64,000 bases of DNA from Betaproteobacteria bacterium (lineage in GTDB: Bacteria; Pseudomonadota; Gammaproteobacteria; Burkholderiales; Burkholderiaceae_E), in contig JAGWVN010000005.1 in the NCBI GenBank assembly GCA_018970865.1, forward strand, positions 1 through 64,000. The letters are read 5' to 3'. Both the position numbers and the translations under genes were made by a program. Below, piece after piece: positions 1,262 to 33,226 of this stretch. Under the pieces are notes generated by a model. That model saw nothing but the letters and a program-made list of their open reading frames with translations. It did no database searches and was not told where the DNA came from. The first letter of the stretch is position 1; each line of letters opens with the position of its first letter.

Positions 1262-3328
<2,067 letters not shown>

Positions 3329-3402
3329 AACCTAGACTCCACTTTAAGTTCGACCCCTAAAGCGTGAGGTCATCGGGGGTTTTTCAGGTCGTTCACAGAA
3401 CC

Positions 3403-3411
3403 TGTGGATAA
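3403..3411 (-). promoter_or_regulatory. DnaA box 1 (TTATCCACA)
   Basis: The plus strand reads TGTGGATAA, the exact complement of the high-affinity DnaA box TTATCCACA. It lies 75 bases upstream of the priA start, next to weaker two-mismatch boxes (TCGTTCACA on the plus strand at about 3389-3397, and TTGGCCACA on the minus strand just to its right). Confidence 0.6.
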
Positions 3412-3459
3412 AACTGTGGCCAACCCGGCCCGATCGCCCGGAAACCCGCGCCAATCCTT

Positions 3460-3543
3460 GATGACGGGTTCGTTGCACGGTTTTTGGTCTGAGAAAAACT
3501 CATTATTAATCAGCGAGTTGCGAAATCACGATTCGATGACGGG
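3460..3543 (+). repeat. Two 9-bp direct repeats GATGACGGG
   Basis: GATGACGGG occurs at 3460-3468 and again at 3535-3543, in the same orientation, 75 bp apart. They bracket the most AT-rich part of the gap and lie between the two DnaA boxes. The role is unknown; they may be coincidental or protein-binding repeats. Confidence 0.4.
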
Positions 3544-3580
3544 CTGACTCCTGAACGCATATTTGAGCAGCCTCGTCAAG

Positions 3581-3589
3581 TGTGCATAA
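3581..3589 (-). promoter_or_regulatory. DnaA box 2 (TTATGCACA)
   Basis: The plus strand reads TGTGCATAA, complement of TTATGCACA, which fits the consensus TTATNCACA exactly. It has the same orientation as box 1, 178 bp away, and is separated from it by AT-rich sequence. Confidence 0.5.
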
Positions 3590-3759
3590 GTCAGGACGCT
3601 TGCCGCCGGCCACCCCGATGAAACGCGGCCTGTCAAGCGCCAGACCGGTGCGTGAGACGCGGGCACGGGCGCATGCCGGCGCCAGGGCGCGGCGCGCCGT
3701 ACGCCGGGCGGCGAACCCGGCGGCGGACAGGGAGGCAGACCCCGCAGCGCGCCCAGCCG

Positions 3760-4872
3760 CTACAGCGAGGAGGCGCTCGCACCCCGCCGACGCATCTCCC
3801 GGCTGTACTGATGCACGGTCTCGACCAGGGTATGGACATGGTCGGGCGGGGTGAACTGGGAGATGCCGTGGCCGAGGTTGAAGATGTGGGCGTGGCCGGC
3901 GCTGGGCGGGCCGAAGCTTTCGAGCACCTTGAGGGCCTGGGCGCGCACCTGCTCATGACCGGCCATGAGCACCATGGGGTCGAGATTGCCCTGGATGGCG
4001 CAGCGGTCACCCACCAGCGCCCGGGCCTGGCCGAGGTTCATGGTCCAGTCGACCCCGACCGCATCGCAGCCGGCGCCGGCGATCTGCTCCAGCCACAGGC
4101 CGCCGCCCTTGGTGAACACGATGGTGGGGACCCGGACCTTGACGCCACCCTCCTCGCGTTCGGGCCGCAGCGCCCGCAGCACCCGGCGGGTGTAGGCCAG
4201 CGAAAAGGCCTGGAAGGCGCCGTCGGCCAGCGCGCCGCCCCAGGAGTCGAAGATCATGACCGCCTGGGCGCCGGCCTCGATCTGGGCGTTGAGATAGTCG
4301 GCCACCGCCTGTGCGTTCACCTCGAGGATGCGGTGGAGCAGGTCGGGACGGCGATACAGCATGGTCTTGATCTGGCGGAAGTCGTCGCTGCCGCCGCCCT
4401 CGACCATGTAGCAGGCCAGGGTGAAGGGGCTGCCCGAGAAACCGATCAGGGGCACCTTGCCGCCGAGCGCCGACCGGATGGTGCGCACCGCGTCCATCAC
4501 ATAGCGAAGGGACTGGTTGGGGTCGGGCGCGGCCAGCTGGGCGACCGCCGCCTCGTCGCGCACCGGGCGCTCGAAGCGCGGACCCTCGCCCTCGGCGAAG
4601 TACAGGCCCAGGCCCATGGCGTCGGGCACGGTGAGGATGTCGGAGAACAGGATGGCCGCGTCCAGCGGATAGCGGGCCAGCGGCTGCAGCGTGACCTCGC
4701 AGGCGAGCTCGGGGTTCTTGCACAGGTTCAGGAAGCTGCCGGCGCGGGCCCGGGTGGCGTTGTACTCCGGCAGGTAGCGGCCGGCCTGGCGCATCAGCCA
4801 CACCGGGGTGTGCTCGGTGGGCTCCCGGCGCAGGGCCCGCAGGAAGGTGTCGTTGGCAACGGCAGCGGTCAT
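3760..4872 (-). CDS. hemE: Uroporphyrinogen decarboxylase HemE
   Basis: 370-residue cytosolic haem-biosynthesis enzyme that decarboxylates uroporphyrinogen III to coproporphyrinogen III. The N-terminal signature [10 protein letters not shown] is at residues 28-37. FSDIL follows at about 76 with the conserved substrate-binding aspartate. The C-terminal FNLGHGI supplies the conserved histidine. Length is typical for the family. Its ATG overlaps the TGA of the upstream Rossmann-fold gene by 4 bases, which indicates translational coupling. The C-terminus ends in a short Arg/Ser-rich tail. Confidence 0.96.
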
Positions 4873-32397: not shown

Positions 32398-32413
32398 TGT
32401 TCCACGTGAAACA
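32398..32413. promoter_or_regulatory. parS site 1 (TGTTCCACGTGAAACA)
   Basis: The 16 bases differ from the general bacterial parS consensus TGTTTCACGTGAAACA at a single position, and keep the central CACGTG. It lies 480 bp upstream of mnmG and 3.9 kb from parB. Confidence 0.88.
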
Positions 32414-33210: not shown

Positions 33211-33226
33211 TGTTCCACGTGGAACA
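33211..33226. promoter_or_regulatory. parS site 2 (TGTTCCACGTGGAACA)
   Basis: A perfect 16-bp palindrome of the symmetric parS variant, 813 bp from parS 1. It lies between the candidate origin region and the GMC oxidoreductase gene. Confidence 0.88.

Follow-up and report, generated by a model that had tools for sequence, protein, structure and literature searches.

A conserved element of DnaA boxes and a predicted IHF site between hemE and priA in Burkholderiales, a candidate DnaA-control locus of the DARS/datA class

Most of the detailed knowledge of how noncoding loci control DnaA comes from E. coli. There, datA needs boxes 2, 3, and 7 together with an IHF site (PMC10380432, PMC5742627, PMC4245941, PMC8682772), and minimal datA spans 187 bp (PMC10380432). 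In the K-12 sequence, TTATCCACA is followed by IHF at +65 and by TTATTCACA at +162 (97 bp past IHF), all in one direction. The DARS core consists of boxes I to III, with box I opposite to boxes II and III, and has the same spacing in DARS1 and DARS2 (PMC5742627); in E. coli DARS1, TAATACACA lies at −12, TTATCCACA at 0, and TTATCCACT, inverted, at +14. DARS2 needs IHF and Fis in addition to a core with an inverted box I (PMC10380432, PMC5742627, PMC4245941, PMC8682772), and DARS1 is active in vitro without extra factors (PMC5742627). Since reviews place DARS-like sequences in many proteobacteria (PMC10380432, PMC5742627), the class as such is already known. No report of an element of this kind at priA or in Burkholderiales was found in the open-access papers searched, and the hybrid layout and the priA address described below appear to be undescribed there.

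The window, which is the whole stretch of DNA that was analyzed (64 kb), comes from a draft genome of 192 contigs and 3.9 Mb. On its minus strand, hemE, an intergenic gap, and priA follow one another in that order, and the gap holds two strong DnaA boxes together with several further sites. The features are as follows.

1262-3328, minus strand: priA (primosomal helicase), from its translation; the gap is at its 5' side
3341-3349, minus strand: accessory pseudo-palindrome ACTTAAAGT, at +62 from box II
3389-3397, plus strand: weak inverted DnaA box I, TCGTTCACA (6/8), at +14 from box II
3403-3411, minus strand: DnaA box II (strong, priA-proximal), exact TTATCCACA
3415-3423, minus strand: weak DnaA box III, TTGGCCACA (6/8), facing the same way as box II and 12 bp upstream of it
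3460-3468 and 3535-3543, plus strand: direct repeats GATGACGGG, from the sequence
3508-3520, minus strand: predicted IHF-type site CAACTCGCTGATT, an 8/9 match to YAANNNNTTGATW, at +69 from box A and −109 from box II
3581-3589, minus strand: DnaA box A (strong, distal, hemE-proximal), exact TTATGCACA
3760-4872, minus strand: hemE (uroporphyrinogen decarboxylase), from its translation; the gap is at its 3' side

The preliminary description of this DNA had reported two exact DnaA boxes in the same orientation, and boxes II and A are these, with a start-to-start distance of 178 bp. It had also held that chance matches are few in such GC-rich DNA, which was borne out: the two boxes are the only exact copies of TTATNCACA in the window, and 300 dinucleotide shuffles of the window yielded 0.07 copies per window and never two. 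Three exact copies occur in the whole draft genome, two of them being boxes A and II. The relaxed box TTRTNCACA has 24 matches genome-wide, and the sole other close pair lies just downstream of dnaA. The surrounding interval is AT-richer, as described, with 52.1% GC at 3361-3600 compared to 61.7% for the gap and 71.5% for the whole window, and positions 3480 to 3560 are locally at 43% GC. The GATGACGGG direct repeats of 9 bp are present as well, but both copies are kept in the closest relative only; for this reason they are probably incidental. They form no part of the conserved element, and a reading as iterons was rejected. A structured RNA was also rejected, as the window had no Rfam match.

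Conservation was examined in relatives, where the gap was first read via matches to hemE (orthologues in 39 of 41 genomes). The boxes proved to be strongly conserved at the same gap. Most relatives repeat the same-direction pair, with TTATGCACA on the hemE side, TTATCCACA on the priA side, and box A between about −173 and −193 relative to box II. Across the order Burkholderiales, a box pair at the conserved spacing was present in 271 of 399 genomes (backward-pattern control, 4), and hemE and/or priA, nearly always both, lay beside 27 of the 30 order loci examined. The full pattern, with TTGATW included, was found in 78 of 369 genomes of the class and in 0 controls. Among the matches listed in a scan of named records are Acidovorax, Hydrogenophaga, Ralstonia, Polynucleobacter, Limnobacter, Paraburkholderia, Pseudomonas, Marinobacter, Methylobacter, and other genera, and these records point to Burkholderiales as the order of the window. 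A tblastn search with the PriA protein of the window located priA next to the element in other genera, and at many class-level loci priA is directly downstream while hemE was not detected. The few matches in distant phyla, which have no complete IHF motif, are probably due to chance. Compared to the nearest congener, identity is 60% in the spacer before box A, 94% from the IHF site to box II, 97.5% in the 40 bp surrounding box II, and 93.6% in hemE, so that the constraint on the element is comparable to that on coding sequence. Most Burkholderiales carry a conserved element, separate from oriC, in which fixed, mostly helix-phased distances separate box A, the predicted IHF site, and a cluster of three boxes.

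The predicted IHF site is perfect (YAANNNNTTGATW) in the nearest relative, at the same place as the one-mismatch copy of the window, and both ihfA and ihfB are encoded in the genome. A complete YAANNNN half was present in 109 of 151 elements, against a background of 15%. In these 109 complete-IHF elements, the distance from box A to the IHF site is 64 to 71 or 75 to 82 bp (with one at 61), and the distance from the IHF site to box II is 95 to 99 or 107 to 112 bp, with none in between; nearly all family loci have arms of 66-69 and 107-109 bp. Most pair spacings fall near 176-177 or 187-188 bp, with a difference of eleven between the two groups, a pattern that is partly phylogenetic. Boxes III and I were outside the original search pattern and were found by anchored profiles around box II. 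A match of at least 6/8 occurs at −12 (box III) in 88 of 95 elements (background, 0.9%) and at +14 inverted (box I) in 60 of 95 (background, 0.6%); 58 of 95 have both, each with a background below 1%. Box I is weak or missing in some relatives.

The accessory pseudo-palindrome ACTTAAAGT also keeps its distance. In the family and its near relatives, it or a one-base variant was found at +62 from box II in 13 loci, at +63 in one, and inverted at +73 in one; in other loci it is inverted at +72/+73, one helical turn further. Because of this inversion with a one-turn shift, a promoter or ribosome site is disfavored. Loci with the pseudo-palindrome include the window, L200, L016, L079, L261, L263, and L283, and ACTTAAAGTRR occurs once in the draft genome.

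When compared to E. coli, the element shares features with both datA and DARS. As in datA, a single IHF site lies between two strong boxes of the same direction, with a spacing (178 versus 162 bp) that is similar but not equal and with arms of 69 and 109 bp versus 65 and 97 bp. The stretch from box A through box II measures 187 bp. Several features set the element apart from datA: its second arm is about one helical turn (∼12 bp) longer, its inverted box is at +14 rather than +12, it is not beside tRNA-Gly genes, and its weak tandem box accompanies the other of the two strong boxes, whereas in datA the two-misfit box 7 is beside box 2 in the same direction. As in DARS1, matches of 6/8, 8/8, and 6/8 lie at −12, 0, and +14 (inverted), the geometry of the DARS core, although boxes III and I are weaker than those of DARS1. 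The settings are also alike, as DARS1 and DARS2 are at the promoters of the DNA repair genes uvrB and mutH (PMC5835720) and the element is beside the restart gene priA. A pure datA assignment was revised after these core boxes were found. The element thus joins the box-IHF-box layout of datA to a DARS core.

The resemblance to DARS has limits of its own. The IHF site is 109 bp off the core, on the box III side, a fixed strong distal box A lies beyond it, and the locus is near the origin region. The element does not follow DARS2 in its IHF and Fis positions, since its IHF site appears to flank the core on the opposite side and no Fis consensus proved to be conserved. E. coli DARS2 does have an apparent IHF match at −109, but this was discounted, since it is +217/+233 that fit the footprinted IBS1-2 (two sites, 3 bp apart); IBS1-2 appear to be on the core side opposite to the IHF site of the element.

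Taken on its sequence, the gap is tentatively read as a trans-acting DnaA-control locus of the DARS/datA class, with the DARS type, an IHF-bent site for DnaA reactivation, favored at somewhat short of an even chance. A DARS-type assembly of DnaA would form on box II and its weak neighbors III and I, and IHF would bend the DNA, bringing DnaA bound at box A to the three-box assembly. A head-to-head DnaA pair on boxes I and II would promote ADP release and so regenerate ATP-DnaA, and the initiation potential would thereby be coupled to replication of an origin-proximal locus; a change in priA transcription may be a secondary effect of DnaA occupancy. ADP release is the likelier output because the I/II pair is inverted. 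A trans-acting role is favored because some genomes carry tandem duplicates and because the distance to priA varies. Against the DARS type, the box-IHF-box layout fits datA, the output of which is the opposite (ATP hydrolysis), DARS2 appears to have its IHF sites on the other side and requires Fis, some relatives have only a weak box I or none, and the steady placement at priA could mean cis regulation. ADP release, ATP hydrolysis, and priA regulation are not mutually exclusive.

A broader proposal, possible but on balance doubtful, is that a DARS core, IHF site, distal anchor box, and phased sites make up a distinct, widespread class of element, tied to priA, that Burkholderiales and several other gammaproteobacterial lineages use as their standard DnaA switch, with E. 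coli datA and DARS as split or specialized versions. A conserved priA-adjacent element may show how datA and DARS evolved, and since its address upstream of priA can be predicted, one conserved site would make the same control testable in Burkholderiales such as Ralstonia, Cupriavidus, and Polynucleobacter. The link to priA, if true, would join the control of initiation with replication restart.

The strongest rival, although an unlikely one, is a datA-type site, at which IHF would loop box A to boxes III/II and ATP-DnaA would oligomerize head to tail and hydrolyze its ATP, lowering initiation after duplication of the locus. The order and orientation of the strong boxes and IHF motif, the similar arms, the agreement of the 187-bp span with minimal datA (PMC10380432), and a position near the origin region, as for datA, all argue for it. 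So do the 14 short-arm elements, which include, among the matches listed, records from Photorhabdus, Buttiauxella, Edwardsiella, Xenorhabdus, and Rahnella; most of these enterobacterial records also hold tRNA-Gly genes, as found beside E. coli datA. Yet the inverted +14 box, frequent in elements of the kind described here, is absent from all 14 short-arm elements (0/14), the second arm of the window is ∼12 bp longer with no complete element between 99 and 107, and the weak tandem box is at the end opposite to datA box 7.

Less probable again is cis regulation, in which a loop of DnaA and IHF over the priA promoter, repressing or activating, would tie restart capacity to the level of DnaA. The element is just upstream of priA here and in other genomes of the class that have no hemE at the locus, box II is ∼30 bp from the priA start in some loci (L082 to L087), and ACTTAAAGT is close to the priA start at a fixed phase; DnaA may control priA directly. 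However, the element is tens of bp away from priA at some loci and hundreds at others, and the whole element is present in two tandem copies between hemE and priA in some genomes (L029 of genome G031, L190, L259, L272, and L277). Similar elements also adjoin other genes, such as recB-like and gpsA-like ORFs, and in E. coli neither datA nor DARS is located at priA.

The preliminary description had also raised the titration of DnaA. High-affinity boxes near the origin region are consistent with a simple titration site that has no catalytic output, and datA also titrates DnaA (PMC5835720), but titration needs neither an IHF site nor fixed helical spacing, both of which are strongly conserved, and this reading is very improbable. 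What stands of the earlier suggestion is the DnaA-binding regulatory locus, made more specific here by the IHF site and the DARS-type three-box core.

Its other suggestion, a chromosomal replication origin in the gap, is scarcely tenable: DnaA boxes, a predicted IHF site, and locally AT-rich DNA do occur in an atp-par-mnmG neighborhood, but the window has no GC-skew inflection at 3.4 kb, the skew minima of two relatives are elsewhere, no DUE was recognized, inspection by eye showing no repeated 13-mers, and weaker boxes flank dnaA on the dnaA contig of the same genome. A loss of the boxes in relatives together with a lack of skew inflection had been named as grounds for giving up the interpretation; the inflection is indeed lacking, but the boxes are strongly conserved. 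Congener G002 has its skew minimum (C5:313,533) ∼120 bp from a separate intergenic cluster of three exact boxes with AT-rich DNA, and the hemE-priA gap lies 155 kb away. This cluster (G002:C5:313533-313763; L155, 13533-13763), beside a nudC-like gene and 67 kb from dnaA, is the probable oriC of the genus. G015, which belongs to the family, has its minimum close to dnaA and at 71 kb from the gap; in G031 the skew was too weak to place an origin. The element resembles the oriC of E. coli and Burkholderiales in having DnaA boxes and an IHF site and differs in being off the skew minimum and without a clustered array or a recognized DUE. An alphaproteobacterial type of origin adjacent to hemE was dropped, as the relatives are of the Burkholderiales type with the skew minimum elsewhere.

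The neighborhood of the window is nonetheless origin-proximal. Rightward of hemE lie the atp genes (∼11.4 to 17.7 kb), parB (27.6 to 28.6 kb), and mnmG (∼30.0 to 32 kb), and two exact parS sites (TGTTNCACGTGNAACA) are present upstream of mnmG at 32398-32413 and 33211-33226, ∼4 to 5 kb from parB. The cumulative GC skew has a local maximum at ∼33 kb, where genes switch strand; this is the reverse of an origin signal and probably reflects coding-strand bias.

Two further sites were noted. Of 70 elements examined, 20 have a second IHF consensus, apparently lineage specific, at +40 relative to box II (L098 to L104, L171, L195, L212, L214, L251, and others, with named records of Acidovorax and Hydrogenophaga among them). 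The one exact DnaA box that the draft genome has outside the gap (G000:C113:9281-9289; L161) is between nrdA-like and nrdB-like genes; in E. coli, the nrd genes are under DnaA regulation.
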